Shown: positions 2,650 through 28,308 of the stretch, one piece after another
How the letters are laid out: every line of letters begins with the position of its first letter
How positions within the stretch are numbered: the first letter of the stretch is position 1
NCBI GenBank assembly: GCA_023382655.1
Contig: JAHDWK010000036.1
Span: 1 to 64,000 of the forward strand
Length of the DNA: 64,000 nt
Reading direction: 5' to 3'
DNA from: Anaerolineae bacterium
GTDB lineage: Bacteria; Chloroflexota; Anaerolineae; Promineifilales; Promineifilaceae
Position numbers and translations under genes: made by a program
The notes under the pieces: model-generated
Databases searched by the model: none
The model's input: the letters and a program-made list of their open reading frames with translations, nothing else
What the model was told of the DNA's origin: nothing

Positions 2650-3906
2650 ATGCAACTACCCTCTGGCGGAGATAGCATTCAAGAATTAACGGTGGAAGAA
2701 CTCCGGGCCAAAGTCGGCACGGGGATGGAAATCGAGAATGCAGAGGAGCATCTTCTTCTCAGCATGGGGCCGCAGCATCCCAGCACACATGGCGTATTAC
2801 GGCTACTGCTGGAATTGGATGGCGAAAATGTGGTCAACATGGCCCCGGACATTGGTTTTCTACACACCGGCGTGGAAAAAAACATGGAGGCCAAAACCTA
2901 CACCAAAGCGCTGGTGATGACCGACCGCCTGGATTATCTTTCGCCCATGTCCAACAACCTGGGTTATATCCTGGCGGTGGAAAAGCTGCTGGGGGTGGAA
3001 GCGACGCCGCGCGCCCAGGTGATTCGGGTGATTTTGACGGAACTGGCGCGGGTCAGCAGCCATCTGGTCTGGTTGGGCACCCATGCCCTAGACCTGGCGG
3101 CGATGTCGGTATTTCTCTACTGCTTCCGCGAACGGGAATATATTTTGGACCTGTTTGAGATGTGCAGCGGGCAGCGAATGATGGTGAGTTATTTCCGTCC
3201 CGGTGGGCTGTGGCGGGATGTGCCGGAAGAGTTTGAACCGGCTGTGCGCGAATTTCTGGAATTCATGCCGGCCCGCATTGCGGATTATGAGGCATTGACG
3301 AAGCGGAACCCCATCTGGCTGGATCGGACAAAGGATATTGGGGTAGTGGATGCAGACACGGCCGTTGCCTGGGGCATGACCGGCCCCTCCCTGCGCGGCT
3401 CCGGCGTCAATTGGGACATCCGCAAAGCCGAACCCTACTGTGGGTACGAGCAGTACGAATTTGACGTACCCGTCGCCACCGAAGGGGATGTGTACGCCCG
3501 GTACTGGTGCCGCATGGAAGAGATGAAACAAAGCCTGGGCATCATCCGCCAGGCAATGGACAGGCTGCCCAAAGGCCCCATCAACATTGACGACCGCAAA
3601 ATTGTGCCCCCGCCCCGCGCGGAACTTGGGCGCAGCATGGAGGCCGTTATCCACCACTTCAAGCTGTGGACAGAGGGTTTTAGCGCCCCTGCTGGCTACG
3701 TTTACCAAAGCATCGAATCGCCACGCGGTGAATTTGCCTGCTACCTGCGCGGTGATGGTGGCCCCAAACCGGCGCGCTGCCACTTCCGCACCCCCTCCTA
3801 TGTGCATCTGGCCTCGCTGCCGCATATGTCAAAGGGGCGCTTTGTGGCCGATGTGGTTTCCATCATTGGCTCGGTGGATATTGTATTGGGGGAAATTGAC
3901 CGGTGA
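2650..3906 (+). CDS. nuoD: NADH-quinone oxidoreductase subunit D
   Basis: This is the 49 kDa-type subunit of complex I, related to the large subunit of NiFe hydrogenases, which forms the quinone pocket with NuoB. The 418-residue protein contains the conserved GPQHPSTHGVLR near residues 40-51, HTGVEK near 71-76 and the C-terminal IIGSVDIVLGEIDR. A short N-terminal extension of about 35 residues precedes the conserved core. It belongs to the nuo operon. A hairpin follows directly. Confidence 0.97.
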   Translation: MQLPSGGDSIQELTVEELRAKVGTGMEIENAEEHLLLSMGPQHPSTHGVLRLLLELDGENVVNMAPDIGFLHTGVEKNMEAKTYTKALVMTDRLDYLSPMSNNLGYILAVEKLLGVEATPRAQVIRVILTELARVSSHLVWLGTHALDLAAMSVFLYCFREREYILDLFEMCSGQRMMVSYFRPGGLWRDVPEEFEPAVREFLEFMPARIADYEALTKRNPIWLDRTKDIGVVDADTAVAWGMTGPSLRGSGVNWDIRKAEPYCGYEQYEFDVPVATEGDVYARYWCRMEEMKQSLGIIRQAMDRLPKGPINIDDRKIVPPPRAELGRSMEAVIHHFKLWTEGFSAPAGYVYQSIESPRGEFACYLRGDGGPKPARCHFRTPSYVHLASLPHMSKGRFVADVVSIIGSVDIVLGEIDR

Positions 3907-3951
3907 TACGTGATGCGTGATACGTGAGTTTTGTCACGCATCACGTCTTTT
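3906..3951 (+). terminator. Hairpin with T-run between nuoD and nuoE
   Basis: ACGTGATGCGTGA pairs with TCACGCATCACGT and is followed by CTTTT. It looks like an intrinsic terminator but sits inside the operon. The words belong to the GTGATGCGTGA repeat family also seen at 18680-18711 and 34063-34122. It may act as partial attenuator or mRNA-stability element. Confidence 0.45.
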
Positions 3952-3959
3952 AGACAACC

Positions 3960-4517
3960 ATGACATTTACCGAAAAATACGCAGCAGAAATCGAAGGAAT
4001 TATCGCCCGATTCCCGCATAAAAAGTCGGCGGTGCTGCCGCTGATGCACCTGGCGCAGCACCACTATGGCTACATGAGCGACGAAGCCATGCGCGAAGTG
4101 GCCGCCATTTTGGATTTAGACCCCACGCACGTCCTGTCATTGGCCGGGTTTTACACCCTCTATTACGAAGAGCCGGTGGGCAAATACGTGCTGGAAATTT
4201 GCAACGACCTGGCCTGCGCCCTGCGCGGCGCAGACCAGTTTGTAGAGATGGCCTGTGGCAGACTGGGAATTGACGTGGACGAAACAACGGCCGATGGCCT
4301 GTTCACCATCAAAACGGTGATGTGCCTGGCCGCCTGCGACCGCGCCCCCATGTTGCAATGCAATCTCAAGTTTGAAGAAAACCTGGACGAAGCTAAATTT
4401 GACGATCTGCTGACACGTCTGCGTGAACAGGCAGCCAATGAAGCTGTTACTCCCTCGGTCGTAGAAAAGATCACAGCATACGCAAAAGATAGTGAGCAGT
4501 TGGCAGTGAGCAGTTAG
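3960..4517 (+). CDS. nuoE: NADH-quinone oxidoreductase subunit E
   Basis: This is the 24 kDa-type subunit holding the 2Fe-2S cluster N1a of the NADH dehydrogenase module. The four ligands are visible: Cys81 and Cys86 (CNDLAC), Cys122 and Cys126 (CLAAC), in the expected C-x4-C...C-x3-C arrangement. The protein has 185 residues, and the last ten (SEQLAVSS) are encoded by the start of the palindromic repeat that fills the gap to nuoF. The C terminus therefore appears to have been rewritten by the repeat. Confidence 0.95.
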   Translation: MTFTEKYAAEIEGIIARFPHKKSAVLPLMHLAQHHYGYMSDEAMREVAAILDLDPTHVLSLAGFYTLYYEEPVGKYVLEICNDLACALRGADQFVEMACGRLGIDVDETTADGLFTIKTVMCLAACDRAPMLQCNLKFEENLDEAKFDDLLTRLREQAANEAVTPSVVEKITAYAKDSEQLAVSS

Positions 4518-4563
4518 CAGCCACAAACTGCTCACCGCCAACCGCTCACTGCTCACTTTTTAT
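4489..4563. repeat. GTGAGCAGT-type palindromic repeat between nuoE and nuoF
   Basis: Repeated AGTGAGCAGTT words on the left face AACTGCTCACC and CGCTCACTGCTCACT on the right, followed by TTTTT. It starts within nuoE codons. Related copies lie at 8440-8491, covering the end of nuoG, and at 47934-47999. The structure could act as a terminator or stability hairpin. Confidence 0.6.
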
Positions 4564-4566
4564 CAT

Positions 4567-5835
4567 ATGGCACACATACTATTACGGCATCGTGATATTG
4601 AGAATATAAAAGAGCTGGACGTTTACCGGCAGCATGGCGGGTATGAAGCGCTCAAGAAGGCGCTGACCATGACGCCGGCCGAAGTAACCGATGTGGTCAA
4701 AGCATCCGGGCTGCGTGGCCGGGGTGGGGCCGGTTTTCCCACCGGTTTGAAGTGGACATTCATCCCCAAAGGCGCGCAGGAGGTGTATGTGACCATCAAT
4801 TCCGACGAATCGGAGATGGGCACATTCAAAGACCGCGAACTGCTAGAATACAATCCACATCAGGTGATTGAAGGCGCGCTGATTTGTGCCTATGCGGTAG
4901 GGGCCAAACGCATTTACAACTATATGCGCGGCGAGTTTATGGACGCGGGTTATGCCTTCGAGGAAGCCATTCACGACTGTTATGCCGCCGGGTTGCTGGG
5001 CGAAAACATCTTGGGAACTGATTTTAGCTGCGATATGGCGGCCTACTATGGCGCGGGCGCTTACATTTGTGGCGAGGAGACGGCCCTGCTCAATTCGCTG
5101 ATGGGTGAGTTGGGGCAGCCCTGGTCGAAGCCACCGTTTCCGGCCATAGAAGGACTGTATCACAAACCGACCGTCGTTAACAATACCGAAACGCTGGCGA
5201 ACGTGCCGGCCATCATCAGCAACGGCGCGGATTGGTACAAGAGCATGGGCACAGAAAGAAGCACCGGCCCCAAAATCGTCTGCCTGAGCGGGCATGTGAA
5301 CAAACCGGGCAACTACGAAGTGATCATGGGCATGACGTACCGGGAGTTGATTTATGGCGAGCAGTACGGCGGCGGCATTCCTGGCGGCAAGAAGTTTAAG
5401 GCGATGCTGCCTAGCGGTGGCTCTGGCCCGGTGGTGAAAGAAGATGCCCTGGACGCACCTATTACCTACGAAGGGCTGGACAAATTTGGCTCGGTGATGG
5501 GGTCGGCGTCGGTGGTAATCATGGACGAGACGACGGACATGGTGTGGATGGCGATGAAGTGCGTCCACTTTTTTAAGCATGAGTCGTGTGGCAAATGTAC
5601 ACCCTGCCGCGAGGGGACGTTTTGGATGGATCAACTGCTGCACAAGATTTGTCATGGGCATGGTACGGCCGAAGATTTGCGCGTGTTGAAAAGCGTGGCC
5701 GGGCAAATTGGCGGGCGCACGTTGTGTGCGCTGGGTGATTTTGCCATTAACCCGGTTTTAAGTACCGTCAGGCACTTCCCTGAAGAGTATGAAGCGAAGG
5801 TAAAAGCGAATAGTCCGGTAAACGGTAATCGGTAA
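4567..5835 (+). CDS. nuoF: NADH-quinone oxidoreductase subunit F
   Basis: This is the 51 kDa-type subunit that binds NADH and FMN and carries 4Fe-4S cluster N3. The 422-residue protein shows the glycine-rich GRGGAGFPTG motif near residues 55-64 (nucleotide and flavin binding), CGEETAL near residues 175-181, the cluster ligands in SCGKCTPC near 340-347 and a fourth cysteine in LCALGD near 387. The last residues (SPVNGNR) are encoded by the GTAATCGG-type repeat that fills the gap to nuoG, so the C-terminal tail is repeat-derived. Confidence 0.97.
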   Translation: MAHILLRHRDIENIKELDVYRQHGGYEALKKALTMTPAEVTDVVKASGLRGRGGAGFPTGLKWTFIPKGAQEVYVTINSDESEMGTFKDRELLEYNPHQVIEGALICAYAVGAKRIYNYMRGEFMDAGYAFEEAIHDCYAAGLLGENILGTDFSCDMAAYYGAGAYICGEETALLNSLMGELGQPWSKPPFPAIEGLYHKPTVVNNTETLANVPAIISNGADWYKSMGTERSTGPKIVCLSGHVNKPGNYEVIMGMTYRELIYGEQYGGGIPGGKKFKAMLPSGGSGPVVKEDALDAPITYEGLDKFGSVMGSASVVIMDETTDMVWMAMKCVHFFKHESCGKCTPCREGTFWMDQLLHKICHGHGTAEDLRVLKSVAGQIGGRTLCALGDFAINPVLSTVRHFPEEYEAKVKANSPVNGNR

Positions 5836-23041: not shown

Positions 23042-24223
23042 ATGCCTCTATCTGCTCTTCCCCTAAAATGGCCCCTTCCCACCGAAGAAACCGCCCACGC
23101 CATTGCCGCCCTGCCAGACGCCGCCCAACGTAATCTACAAATCACCGAAACCTACCATGAATTAACCGTGGCCCTCACCCACCTGTTGGGCAGTGAAAAT
23201 GTGACCTGGTGTGCCTTTGGTACGTGGGCTTCCAAAACGGCCGGGCAGTTCATTCGCGGCGACGAGGCCGACCGGATGGTGCGCCTGTATGTGCAGCAGG
23301 CTGATTTCATTGAGCGCAAATTGTCCAGTTTACAGCGCGTCCTGGCCTGGTTTGAGCCGAGTCCCGCGCTCAAAGAAACGTTCGTAGCCCAGGCGATAGA
23401 CAGTGTGCCTGCCGAAATTTCACGCCAGATTGGGGCCGGTAACGTGAAGGTGTTTGCTGAATTGGGGCCGCTCTTCGCCCGCTTCTTGGCCGATTTTGCC
23501 GATTGCCCGGCGTATGATCAGGCGCGGCTGGATGCGTTTCTGGCCCGTTTACGGCCGGGGCCGGCCGAAAACGAGGGGCAAGATTTACTCATTCAGGCAT
23601 TTACCCAGTATCACCAGGCGATGTTTGCCCCCCACGTGCAGGCCAAAGCCGAACACATTTTGTGCGCCAATTTGCTGGTGGGTTTCCATGAGCAGCAGCG
23701 GCTGCAACCGCAAATTGTGGCCGGGATGGAAGCGCCGCTGGAAAATGAATTTGAGAGTAACTTTGTGCGGCGGGCAAATGAGATCATCCGTCAAAAAGCG
23801 CCGCGTGGTATTTCCCGGTTGATTCAACTGCTGTGGCGGTGGCGGTTGAAGGGGGTTTCACGGCAGATTGCCGATGACTGGCGCGAGATTTCCACCCGCT
23901 GGATTATGACGATTGCCCTGCCGACAGAAACGCTGCGTTTAGGAATGGATGTACCACCGCTGCCCAACGGCCGTCCCTTTCCCTCCGACCTCACCACCCT
24001 CCAACTGGCGGCGTTAACGGCCGTGCTCACCACCGTAGACCGCACCCCCGACAGTGCCCACAGCAGCGCCGCCCGCGACTGGGGCAATCTGGCCGACCGC
24101 ATGAACTACATCGCCGACCTGTTCCGCTCCCGCCAACAGGAAGCCAGCCTTTACCAGCAACCTTTCAGTGATGCCCAGGTGGAGGAGATTCGGCACGGCC
24201 GTATGCCTCCTGCCCCCCTTTAG
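23042..24223 (+). CDS. Hypothetical protein, 393 residues
   Basis: A 393-residue soluble, mostly helical protein that I do not recognise. A conspicuous stretch near residues 56-73 (TWCAFGTWASKTAG followed by FIRGD) looks like a conserved active-site or binding motif. The protein has no signal peptide or membrane segment. It starts 11 bases after the repeat that follows nuoN and ends shortly before the convergent broken hicA. The codon usage resembles its neighbours, with four ACGGCCGT octamers in or near it. Confidence 0.65.
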   Translation: MPLSALPLKWPLPTEETAHAIAALPDAAQRNLQITETYHELTVALTHLLGSENVTWCAFGTWASKTAGQFIRGDEADRMVRLYVQQADFIERKLSSLQRVLAWFEPSPALKETFVAQAIDSVPAEISRQIGAGNVKVFAELGPLFARFLADFADCPAYDQARLDAFLARLRPGPAENEGQDLLIQAFTQYHQAMFAPHVQAKAEHILCANLLVGFHEQQRLQPQIVAGMEAPLENEFESNFVRRANEIIRQKAPRGISRLIQLLWRWRLKGVSRQIADDWREISTRWIMTIALPTETLRLGMDVPPLPNGRPFPSDLTTLQLAALTAVLTTVDRTPDSAHSSAARDWGNLADRMNYIADLFRSRQQEASLYQQPFSDAQVEEIRHGRMPPAPL

Positions 24224-24248
24224 CCTAAACGTTTTTGTTTTACGATCT

Positions 24249-24473
24249 TTACAGAGATAACCAGTCTTCCACAAATACACCGGCCTGTCGGATGATGGCT
24301 CTTAACGTCCCTATAGGAATGTCACGCCCTTTGTGAACAGGTACGGGAATCTTGACATGCGTTTCCGGGTGGCGCATAAAAACGTGTTTGCCGCCACCAT
24401 AAGGCTCTTCAAAACCCAAACGCCGTAGTTTGCTGATAATTGTCTACGGCTTCTCAGGCGTTAACTTCGGCAT
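24249..24473 (-). pseudogene. hicA: HicA toxin gene with an in-frame amber stop
   Basis: The frame begins ATG at 24473 and reads MPKLTPEKP, then TAG at 24446-24444, then continues in the same frame as a good HicA sequence (TIISKLRRLGFEEP, then GGKHVFMRHP with the catalytic-type His, and IGTLRAIIRQAG) to a TAA at 24251-24249. One base change (AAG to TAG) would restore a 74-residue toxin. It overlaps the end of hicB by 20 bases. The toxin is therefore probably inactive while the antitoxin is intact. Confidence 0.75.
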
Positions 24474-24741
24474 GTGCTACTTCCATCCCGTTGTTATCAT
24501 CCACATAACCCAGGCTGTAGCCATCAATCAAAGGGATCTCGTCACCAAAGCGCAAAGCTGTTACCAGCCAGCCATGCACCGCATCTTCAGCCATCAATGC
24601 TGCCTCGGCGCGGGTTTCCCCCCAGGTAACACAGCCAGGCAAGACCGGCACTTCAACCGTCCAACCTTCATCTTCATTCTGTGTAAATTCGGCGTAGGTC
24701 AATACCAACCGCACATACTCATTCCAGGATAATGGGATCAT
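24454..24741 (-). CDS. hicB: HicB-family antitoxin
   Basis: A 95-residue HicB-type protein with the partial RNase-H-like core (VEVPVLPGCVTWGETRAEA), which in HicB proteins binds and neutralises HicA. I chose the Met at 24741 over an upstream in-frame Met at 24771 because AGGAGAG lies in front of it. The gene precedes the hicA remnant, the reverse of the hicA-hicB order in the second pair at 30731-31131. With its toxin broken, it is either a relic or a free antitoxin/regulator. Confidence 0.8.
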   Translation of the reverse strand: MIPLSWNEYVRLVLTYAEFTQNEDEGWTVEVPVLPGCVTWGETRAEAALMAEDAVHGWLVTALRFGDEIPLIDGYSLGYVDDNNGMEVAHAEVNA

Positions 24742-24830
24742 CGCAGCACTCTCCTCGAGCAAAACTTTCATACGGCCGTTGCCAAAATCAAGGGTTCAAT
24801 GCACCCATTTTAGCATAGAATATTTTGTCC

Positions 24831-25421
24831 CTAATCCGCAACCTGTTTTACGGCCGTCGGCACCCCATCCGGGTCCATCATCGGCGGCGGATGAATGTCG
24901 AAGGCATCGGCCAACCGCACAAACAGGTTAAAAAGCGCCCCATCGTACACCGCCTCCGCAATTTGGGCATCGCTCCACCCCACATCACGCAATCCCTGCA
25001 CCTGTTCGTCCGTGATTTTGTAGGCATGGCGGGTGAGGGTTTCCACAAATTCCAACAAAAGACGCTCCGCCGGGGTAATGGGGGCGGCATCGAGATCACC
25101 GGCACGCAGGGCCACGGCCGTTTCCGCATACTGTTCGCCTTGCAACTGCAAGAACCAGGCATGGGAACTCAGTCAGTAGTGGCAGCGGTTCAACGCCGCC
25201 ACATACGAGGCAATCATCTCGTGTTGGGCGCGGGTCAGCGCTCCATCGGAGAAATGCAGCCGGGACGCATCCATAATCGCTCGCAAAAAGTCCGGGCGCA
25301 GGCTCATGGTGCGCAAAATATCGGCCACATACCCCCGCTCCGATTGCGACCGGGCCAGTTCAAACACCTCAACCACTTCTCCTTGCGCATCCGCATCTTC
25401 AATCCAGGCAATTCGGGCCAT
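24831..25421 (-). CDS. AhpD-like selenoprotein candidate (CxxU)
   Basis: A carboxymuconolactone decarboxylase/AhpD-type redox protein (peroxidase-related family) of 196 residues, interrupted by one in-frame TGA at 25175-25173. Read through, the active site becomes Glu68-x11-Cys80-x2-Sec83-x3-His87, the exact AhpD motif with Sec in place of the second Cys. A SECIS-like hairpin begins 14 bases after the TGA. The reading frame stays open on both sides and both parts match the family. The start at 25421 follows a perfect AAGGAGGT. Expected role: thiol/selenol peroxidase or disulfide reductase. Sec machinery is not in the window. Confidence 0.75.
25131..25158 (-). promoter_or_regulatory. Candidate bacterial SECIS element
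   Basis: In the RNA, CUUGC pairs with GCAAG around an AGUU loop, and the lower CUGGUU pairs with AACAG with one bulge and a three-base internal loop (GCG). The loop begins 26 bases after the UGA and has G then U at positions 2-3, which fits the known bacterial SECIS pattern of a short loop with an early G within about 16-37 bases of the UGA. Confidence 0.6.
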
Positions 25422-25482
25422 ATCGTTTACCTCCTTAATAATCCACAAATCTCACAGAACTTGTCCTGAGTTTACCGCAGGA

Positions 25483-25537
25483 TGACACAGATTTTACAGG
25501 CACGAACAATCTGTGCCATCGGTGAAATCTGTGGATC
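25483..25537. repeat. ATCTGTG-type intergenic repeat words
   Basis: ACACAGATTTTACAGG faces words such as AATCTGTGCCATC and GGTGAAATCTGTGG. It lies between the selenoprotein candidate and the membrane protein gene. No gene is seen. Confidence 0.4.
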
Positions 25538-25562
25538 CCTCTTAAAAGAAAAATCCGCGTCC

Positions 25563-25991
25563 CTATAACCACTGCCCGCCGTGAAAACGCCAGCGTGGGA
25601 AGAGAATGGGCATGAGGCTTTGGGAGCCAACCCAGGTGAGGGCAAACACGGTGAGATAATGGGCCGCAAAATGGCCGTACTCCACCCCCACCATCACCCC
25701 CGGCAGCGTCAATCCCAGCACCCACAACAAATGCAGCAGCGTCCACAAAAAAAGCCCTTCCCACAAGCCCGCTACCCACACAAACAGCGGCGGCCAATCC
25801 CGGTTCCAGCGCCACGTTTGCACATAATTGTACAACACGTCCCAGCCCAGCCCCAGGAGCAAAACATAGCCCAACAGCGCCAACGGTTGTACGCTGCCAT
25901 AGAGCCAGGCGAACACGGCCGTGACCGGCAGCCCCACCACCATGAGCAAAAAGAGGCGCGTTTGCCAACGGCCGTACAAAGTAAATGTCAT
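25563..25991 (-). CDS. Small integral membrane protein
   Basis: A 142-residue protein with about four membrane segments (near residues 11-32, 36-52, 68-95 and 98-122), rich in Trp and Leu. I do not recognise the family. Its ATG overlaps the stop of the upstream zinc-ribbon flavoprotein gene by four bases (ATGA), so the two are translationally coupled and probably act together, for example as a membrane anchor or electron partner. That functional link is inference. Confidence 0.65.
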   Translation of the reverse strand: MTFTLYGRWQTRLFLLMVVGLPVTAVFAWLYGSVQPLALLGYVLLLGLGWDVLYNYVQTWRWNRDWPPLFVWVAGLWEGLFLWTLLHLLWVLGLTLPGVMVGVEYGHFAAHYLTVFALTWVGSQSLMPILFPRWRFHGGQWL

Positions 25992-27643
25992 GGCCCCCCC
26001 GTGGGGTCAACCCCCTGCCACCAGCGCCACCACTGCCGCGCCGATTCCCAACCCCGAAGCGTGCCTAAACCAGGCACATCCTCCCGCATCAACGCCGCTA
26101 CCGACCGCTGCGCCGCGTATTGCAGTCCCAAGAAACTATCTACCGGCGCATAGGCATTGCCTGCGGCCATCGCCCCTGCCAGAAAAACCTGCCCATACCC
26201 ATTGCGCAACTGCTTCAGTTCAAAATCGGCCGTCACTTCCAGCCGCCCGCTGCTATTTTGACGCAGTCCATAACGCCCGCTCAGGTCGGCCAGCAGGGGA
26301 TGAATGGTCAAGCGGTCATCCAGGCCGGTACAGTCAATCATAAAGTCGGCCACCAGACGGCTTTCCTGGGGCAGCGGCGATTCTTCTTGCAGGTGGATGA
26401 TGAGGCGGTCACGGCCGTTGGGCCGGATACACCTCACCGCGCCAAAAACCAGCCGGTACCATCCTTGCCGCCGCCCTCGCACCACCAACTCCCGCCAATC
26501 TTGCCGGTCACTGGTCGTCGAACCACCCCAGGCAGCCAACAACGCCGGGCGCGCTTCCGGCATTGCCTCTTCCAACACCTCGCGCAGATCACCGCCAAAC
26601 GCCGCTTTGGGGAAGTTATACGGCTGCCACTGCCAGTGATGGCGCGTCCGGCGGCGCGCCCGGCCATATGCCGTATCGGCCGTCAACGAATTGCGCAGCA
26701 AATGAATCACCTGAATATCCCGCCCCGTTGCCTGACGAATCTCATCCAGCCGCTGCAAAATGCGCGAAGCCACAATGCCCCGCCCCCGCAAAATAACCAG
26801 CCCGCCGCGCCGCGCCAACTGTTGGTAAATGTGTTCATGCTGTTCATAGGCCTGCACCAGCAGATGACAATCGCCTGTACTCTGGCGGTATGCTTGGCTT
26901 TCCGGGGAAAACTGTATGGCAGGATGGCCCAACGCCAGGTGCAGGTAGGGGGCGACGAGGCAGTGCGGGACACGGCCGTCCCCCACCGGCACAACCACCA
27001 CCACATACCGCCCATCATCCGTCTGGCGAATGGCGCAAATTTCCCCCTGGTGAAACATTTGCCGCCAACCGATGCGCTTCATTTCCCGTTCCAATGCCTG
27101 ATAAACTGTGCGGGCGCGGGGAGCATAATTATCGGCCAATGCGGTCTCGCTAAAAATCTGCCAGGCAATGCGCCTGGCTTCAACCCACCTGCCATGCCGG
27201 AGCAGCCCCACCATTTCCTGCACGGCATAACCGGGCCAGCCCCAGAGATTGTCCGGTCTGGCCCCGGAATCACTACGAATCCGCTGCTCGTCGGAGATTT
27301 GGGATTGGCGGCAGAGGCGTTGGAAACGGCCGTAAGGCACAGGCTCATACCCCACCACGGCAATCTGGTTTACGGTCGTGCCGCACACCCGTAAATAATC
27401 CACCCAGGCAAAACTCCCCAACCCGCCCCCCAACGCCAGATATGTCGTTTCCGTCACCGGCAGCCCACTTTGCCGCAGCGCCCGCACGGAAACCTGATTT
27501 GCCTGCAAACAATCCGGCAGATTCACCGGAAAAACATCCTGCGGCGCGAGGATGCCACACCAGGGACAAGAACTAACAGAGGCAGCCACAGCCCGACCAC
27601 ACCCGCTGCATCTACCACTCGTTGCCGCCGATGCCTCCGGCAT
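25988..27643 (-). CDS. Zinc-ribbon FAD/NAD(P)-binding oxidoreductase
   Basis: A 551-residue protein. Residues about 12-30 form a zinc-ribbon-like CSGC...CPWC pair. Next comes a nucleotide-binding start GGGLGSFAWVDYL near residues 72-84. Later a second nucleotide-binding region (RGGLVILRGRGIVASRI) and a C-terminal FAD-type ending with FLAGAMAAGNAYAPVDSFLGLQYA appear. The layout is that of a flavin monooxygenase/lysine N-oxygenase-like or NAD_binding_9-type family. The reaction is unknown. The small membrane protein gene is coupled to its end, and a toxin-antitoxin pair lies upstream. Confidence 0.7.
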   Translation of the reverse strand: MPEASAATSGRCSGCGRAVAASVSSCPWCGILAPQDVFPVNLPDCLQANQVSVRALRQSGLPVTETTYLALGGGLGSFAWVDYLRVCGTTVNQIAVVGYEPVPYGRFQRLCRQSQISDEQRIRSDSGARPDNLWGWPGYAVQEMVGLLRHGRWVEARRIAWQIFSETALADNYAPRARTVYQALEREMKRIGWRQMFHQGEICAIRQTDDGRYVVVVVPVGDGRVPHCLVAPYLHLALGHPAIQFSPESQAYRQSTGDCHLLVQAYEQHEHIYQQLARRGGLVILRGRGIVASRILQRLDEIRQATGRDIQVIHLLRNSLTADTAYGRARRRTRHHWQWQPYNFPKAAFGGDLREVLEEAMPEARPALLAAWGGSTTSDRQDWRELVVRGRRQGWYRLVFGAVRCIRPNGRDRLIIHLQEESPLPQESRLVADFMIDCTGLDDRLTIHPLLADLSGRYGLRQNSSGRLEVTADFELKQLRNGYGQVFLAGAMAAGNAYAPVDSFLGLQYAAQRSVAALMREDVPGLGTLRGWESARQWWRWWQGVDPTGGP

Positions 27644-27703
27644 AGGCTTTACCCAAACGCTATCCCTGGTTGCAGGTTGACCTCTTTTCCCCGTACTAAT
27701 GGC

Positions 27704-27988
27704 TTAATAAACCTCATCGTGCGTTCCAATATCGAGCAACACAATCACTTCTGCGCCGGTTTCTGAATCAGTTTCCAGGGCAAAAACAATGCGACAATCA
27801 TACCCGCAGGAACATGCCCATAATCCGTACAATTCGCCGCTTAATTTATGCGTCCCTAATTGGGACGCATAAACATCAGCTTGCATCTGGGCCAAAGTAT
27901 CTTCAATTACTCTCTGCAATCGGGTATTACGACGAATAAACTTGCGAAAGGCCCTTCTAAATTTAGGCGTGAGAACGAGTTCCCTCAT
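27704..27988 (-). CDS. YafQ/RelE-family toxin
   Basis: A 94-residue RelE-superfamily protein, probably an mRNA interferase that cuts mRNA in the ribosome. Typical signs are LTPKFRRAFRKFIRRN at the start, the central HKLSGELYGLWACSCGYDCRIVFAL and the C-terminal VLLDIGTHDEVY, which matches the YafQ/RelE ending. It overlaps the antitoxin gene by four bases. The usual type II toxin-antitoxin order, antitoxin first, is present. Confidence 0.85.
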   Translation of the reverse strand: MRELVLTPKFRRAFRKFIRRNTRLQRVIEDTLAQMQADVYASQLGTHKLSGELYGLWACSCGYDCRIVFALETDSETGAEVIVLLDIGTHDEVY

Positions 27989-28218
27989 GCTGCGTCCTCA
28001 TGCAACTCTTGACGAAGCTCCCTGATAATTTCCGCTAATGGTTGTGGTCTCAACTGTCCCTGCCGATAAGCAAGTAACGATTCTTGAGCATCGCGGGCAA
28101 TTTCCTGGCGACGACGTTCCACATGCCGGTTACGAATAATATCTACCAACAGTTCTTGCTGCTCTAAAGGCAATTCCATAACGGCGTCTAACGCCTTATC
28201 CAGCGTCACATCATTCAT
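27985..28218 (-). CDS. Antitoxin partner of the YafQ/RelE-like toxin
   Basis: A 77-residue charged, helical protein coupled to the toxin gene by an ATGA overlap. It has a short N-terminal DNA-binding-like part (ELPLEQQELLVDIIRNR) and an extended charged C terminus that would wrap the toxin. I prefer the Met at 28218, because the Met at 28227 abuts the GGAGGT ribosome site with no spacing. Such antitoxins normally repress their own promoter. Confidence 0.75.
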   Translation of the reverse strand: MNDVTLDKALDAVMELPLEQQELLVDIIRNRHVERRRQEIARDAQESLLAYRQGQLRPQPLAEIIRELRQELHEDAA

Positions 28219-28308
28219 CGAATGCATACCTCCACTTGATTTTCAGGAGCGATAAAGTTATCCGTTGCCATACAAACCATGACCATTTTAACACAAATAG
28301 CCCTGCGG

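Follow-up and report, generated by a model that had tools for sequence, protein, structure and literature searches.

The locus and its reading frame

The window, which is the whole 64,000-nucleotide stretch of DNA analysed here, contains on its minus strand, from 25421 to 24831, a frame that yields one protein of 196 amino acids when TGA is translated as selenocysteine (Sec, U); the single TGA, at 25175–25173, is residue 83. The read-through translation carries the active-site motif E68-x11-C80-x2-U83-x3-H87. With the TGA taken as a stop, two frames are listed, 25448–25173 and 25151–24831, and the ORF downstream of the TGA offers a TTG start. The features of the locus are given below.

24831–25421, minus strand: AhpD-like (TIGR01926) selenoprotein gene, 196 aa, stop codon TAG at 24833–24831; TIGR01926 97 bits, CMD 40.8 bits
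25173–25175, minus strand: putative Sec-encoding TGA, U83, second position of CxxU; TGA in 45/45 relatives of >50% identity, Cys codon in Cys paralogues
25430–25436, minus strand: Shine-Dalgarno AAGGAGG, 8 nt before the ATG at 25421, read from the sequence itself; kept in the relatives L028 and L030
25138–25153, minus strand: very likely SECIS-type hairpin, UCUUGC-AGUU-GCAAGG with G in the loop, 20–35 nt after the UGA; pairing, a compensatory pair and an invariant TTG

The initial annotation had described a minus-strand frame broken by this one TGA, and translation with TGA as U returned the same coordinates and motif. Its perfect ribosome site at the start is likewise there, in the AAGGAGG that ends 8 nt before the ATG, and its expectation that ordinary annotation would split the gene is borne out by the two frames in the ORF listing.

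Conservation of the TGA and selection on both halves

Relatives were gathered by searches independent of residue 83, in a phylum sample of 251 genomes and in GTDB genomes, which gave 11 further close relatives and 32 loci, respectively. As the initial annotation had proposed, homologs were aligned at position 83. Every row of more than 50% identity has TGA at this codon (45/45, of which 38 are distinct, from independent assemblies and with the window's own row counted), and the TGA is kept in relatives down to 53% identity. A paralogue in the same genome (C19:14900) reads HCLYCLVSH, with Cys in the Sec83 column. In a 14-row alignment E68, C80, U83 and H87 are invariant.

That the in-frame stop is a single one, and that annotation would give two frames, is what would also be seen in a pseudogene or after a sequencing error, with a Cys codon (TGC or TGT) mutated to, or misread as, TGA. 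Four near relatives from separate assemblies (L028–L031, 95–97% identical), however, all carry the same TGA, which excludes a sequencing error at this site, and the more distant relatives share it as well. Measured against the near relatives, dN/dS is 0.09–0.15 upstream of the TGA and 0.03–0.09 downstream, indicating purifying selection on both sides; because the constraint downstream at least equals that upstream, the downstream half is translated in the same frame. Pseudogene and sequencing error are therefore rejected, and we give them hardly any credence.

A tree was built from 71 rows; 41 of them, a planctomycete included, form a single clade with 100/100 support that consists entirely of Sec forms, and no Cys member was found among those 41 rows. 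A long stem branch (1.29) parts this clade from the other members. Outside it the family switches between Sec and Cys about five times on the tree, where several branches are long and the deep joins unsure; a residue that is a redox Cys/Sec would be expected to alternate in this way. A Sec-only clade, mainly of Chloroflexota and Dormibacterota and with its own SECIS placement, is mildly new.

A hairpin at the SECIS position

Bases 23–28 after the UGA pair with bases 33–38 (window 25153–25138) around the loop AGUU. Across 14 distinct sequences this pairing is complete (84/84 cells, 100%), and pair 25/36, counted from the UGA, is C-G in 11 sequences and U-A in 3, a compensatory change. In the larger set, TTG at codon +8 and CAA at codon +11 occur in the identical six sequences. 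The outgroup L059 has CCUGC-GGUC-GCAGG, in which the loop closure has gone from A-U to G-C. The covariation thus consists of one pair within the close clade and one outgroup. The Leu codon at +10 is TTG in 33/33 sequences, as compared with 94/669 (14%) of the Leu codons across the alignment, and at 2.83 bits it is the strongest synonymous constraint observed in the gene. The change in step between U-A and C-G, together with the invariant TTG Leu codon, makes it very likely, on sequence grounds, that 25153–25138 is a SECIS-type element.

The initial annotation had placed a SECIS-like hairpin 14–42 nt downstream of the TGA. A conserved hairpin does stand there, more precisely at 25153–25138; the larger 14–42 nt structure, in a 56-nt region, has an energy no better than that of shuffled sequences (z −1.2). 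The folding energy of the bare hairpin is not significant against shuffles either, and an Rfam search with E up to 1 returned no SECIS match, which is weak evidence either way.

In most of the more distant Sec members the hairpin is another one and lies closer to the UGA; ACGGAGAGUUUCUCCGU, whose loop begins with G, is an example. A UGA-proximal hairpin of the ACGGAGA-GUU-UCUCCGU type is shared by L024, L027, L076, L083, L088 and L089. The energy of the downstream stretch differs weakly between distant Sec and Cys members (P 0.046). Since the hairpin of the distant Sec members is different and sits closer to the UGA, whereas that of the window clade lies further 3′ in the same protein family, the SECIS appears to have been moved or re-made in the window clade.

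Selenocysteine machinery of the genome

The genome that holds the window (7.7 Mb in 64 contigs, 97.5% complete, with 5.5% estimated contamination) encodes tRNA-Sec, SelA, SelB and SelD, the set that the initial annotation had named as a check on its proposal. The tRNA-Sec scores 69.3 bits, above the cut-off, and is called by ARAGORN as SeC with the anticodon tca; selA scores 563.6 bits and selD 381.8 bits, and selB is seen as a C-terminal winged helix (78.4 bits) together with a long SelB frame. SelD of this genome (G000, contig C7; L060:1400-1700) itself contains Sec, from an in-frame TGA within ...TAYAACAGUAAK... (CAGUAAK), and a strong hairpin lies ∼15–33 nt downstream of that UGA. In the 251-genome phylum sample, selA is present in all 12 genomes that have the gene or a close relative (at least 62% identical).

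It is formally possible that the UGA is read as some other residue through stop-codon reassignment, that it is a leaky stop without Sec, or that two polypeptides assemble; a TTG start does lie downstream of the stop. Residue 83, however, aligns with a catalytic Cys, the genome has the Sec machinery, the hairpin is conserved at the SECIS position, and several relatives use TGA as the ordinary stop at the end of this same gene. These observations leave such readings very improbable, if slightly less so than a pseudogene. The selenoprotein proposed in the initial annotation is upheld by the Sec machinery, by the fixation of the TGA throughout a deep clade, by selection on either side of it, by the covariation in the hairpin and by the Cys of the paralogues, and we are highly confident, judging from the sequence, that 25421–24831 of the minus strand is a genuine bacterial selenoprotein gene. 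Despite the apparent stop, this is almost certainly a single, unbroken gene, encoding a small antioxidant-type enzyme that contains selenium.

Family, fold and active site

With Cys substituted for Sec, the read-through protein matches TIGR01926, "peroxidase-related enzyme", at 97.0 bits against a cut-off of 81.8. The match covers residues 5–179, and therefore both sides of the TGA belong to the family, as the initial annotation had said of the two flanks in naming the CMD/peroxidase-related family. The Pfam CMD model is matched at 40.8 bits (cut-off 23). NF041238 (AhpD_rel_CFYUT), a model for a related CFYUT (seleno)protein, is matched only in part, at 69.6 bits against a cut-off of 175, so that the window protein is not a member, and the score with the (seleno)protein model NF053654 falls below the cut-off.

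An AlphaFold model built from a 14-row alignment has a mean pLDDT of 93.4, and its best PDB matches are 2prr, 6k40, 2oyo and 3c1l (TM ∼0.8), all AhpD or "peroxidase-related" proteins and also the best PDB matches by sequence. The predicted structure is the all-helical AhpD fold, within the TIGR01926 branch of the AhpD/CMD superfamily. These four Cys proteins share with the window protein its fold, its length and the motif E-x11-C-x2-[C/U]-x3-H; they differ in having Cys where it has Sec, and their identity to it is 24–28%.

The relay of Mycobacterium tuberculosis AhpD comprises Glu118, Cys130, His132, Cys133 and His137 (PMC3141380). Its Glu118, Cys130, Cys133 and His137 correspond to Glu68, Cys80, Sec83 and His87 of the window protein, whereas His132 is replaced by Tyr82 and Cys133 by Sec83; the structural similarity between the two proteins is only remote (TM ∼0.53). 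Pseudomonas aeruginosa PA0269 also has Tyr at the His132 position.

Proposed chemistry

In AhpD, Cys133 attacks the peroxide and Cys130 resolves. By analogy, Sec83 is probably the counterpart of the attacking thiol rather than the resolving one. The initial annotation had put Sec at the resolving Cys, which is probably wrong because Sec replaces the second Cys of the CxxC, in alignment with Cys133 of the M. tuberculosis enzyme.

In the mechanism that we propose, SelB carrying Sec-tRNA-Sec would bind the hairpin just 3′ of the UGA at 25175–25173, and the ribosome would place selenocysteine at residue 83 rather than stop, as the conserved parts suggest. The Sec83 selenolate would most likely attack a hydroperoxide or, alternatively, a disulfide in a partner protein, for instance a peroxiredoxin. 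Cys80 would then resolve the selenenic acid, giving a selenenylsulfide, and the Sec83/Cys80 pair would be regenerated by a reductant of the thiol or lipoamide type. Glu68 and His87 would be the counterparts of the M. tuberculosis AhpD proton relay. The redox activity may be that of a peroxidase or of a disulfide reductase.

The protein could instead be a true selenoprotein that carries out another CMD redox reaction, for example disulfide reduction or a reductive dehalogenation like that of Bmp8. The debrominase Bmp8 is among the structural neighbours (6ohi, TM 0.75), a reminder that the AhpD fold also does other chemistry; the long stem branch of the clade and the presence of Tyr82 in place of His132 point the same way. 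On the other hand, the nearest relatives by both sequence and structure are AhpD or "peroxidase-related" proteins, and the relay Glu, both chalcogens and the His are all kept. We thus consider a different reaction a real possibility, though distinctly the less likely one, and favor the AhpD-type mechanism outlined above.

Genomic neighborhood

The selenoprotein gene stands alone in the window, with a gene of the HicB-like/UPF0150 antitoxin family (24454–24771, minus strand) directly downstream on the same strand; no obvious HicA was seen. Among the genes scanned at 23042–28227 we recognised no redox partner, no ahpC neighbor and no functional clue. A probable toxin-antitoxin pair lies at 27704–28227 (minus strand), where a YafQ/RelE-like gene, just below the Pfam cut-off, overlaps a small upstream gene. 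Upstream of the selenoprotein gene, an inverted repeat, CACAGATTTTAC/GTGAAATCTGTG (window 25486–25533), resembles short dispersed intergenic repeats.

In ∼18–20 Dormibacterota-type relatives (L037; L041–L058), the Sec-AhpD gene is immediately preceded on its own strand by a truncated globin gene, and a gene for an NQR2/RnfD-like membrane protein, with an NQR2 match below the Pfam cut-off, is convergent downstream. In L037 these neighbors occupy 2504–2965 and 3575–5350, respectively. The globin, Sec-AhpD and NQR2/RnfD-like genes of these loci possibly form a functional group; the arrangement is absent at the window locus.

Relation to known selenoproteins and significance

The initial annotation had noted that AhpD-like selenoproteins are known from metagenomic surveys, and the literature agrees: the Sargasso Sea study of 2005 reported 27 AhpD-like CxxU selenoprotein sequences in addition to CMD proteins (PMC1088965), and the GOS study of 2008 reported 299 AhpD-like 1 and 70 AhpD-like 2 selenoproteins (PMC2398784). 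Reviews from 2022 and 2026 list the "AhpD-like protein" under COG2128/TIGR01926, with CxxU and the example MCB9421940.1 (PMC9312934, PMC13188914). With these catalogued proteins the window gene shares the NCBIfam family, a CxxU with Sec in the second position and a downstream bacterial SECIS; it differs in that its subclade, which occurs chiefly in Chloroflexota and Dormibacterota, contains Sec forms only. Because the CxxU AhpD-like form has already been catalogued, the window gene is a well-supported addition to a known selenoprotein family, and knowledge of selenoproteins as such is unchanged by it.

What is gained is a securely supported selenoprotein gene where ordinary annotation gives two fragments or a pseudogene. 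The putatively obligate-Sec clade, its shifted SECIS and the globin/NQR2 neighbors of the Dormibacterota-type loci might, as a tentative suggestion that we think more doubtful than not, mark a selenoenzyme in its own right, connected with globin chemistry, and not an ordinary AhpD. The clade is widespread in uncultured Chloroflexota and Dormibacterota, and its apparent lack of a Cys form suggests that selenium chemistry matters for the reaction.
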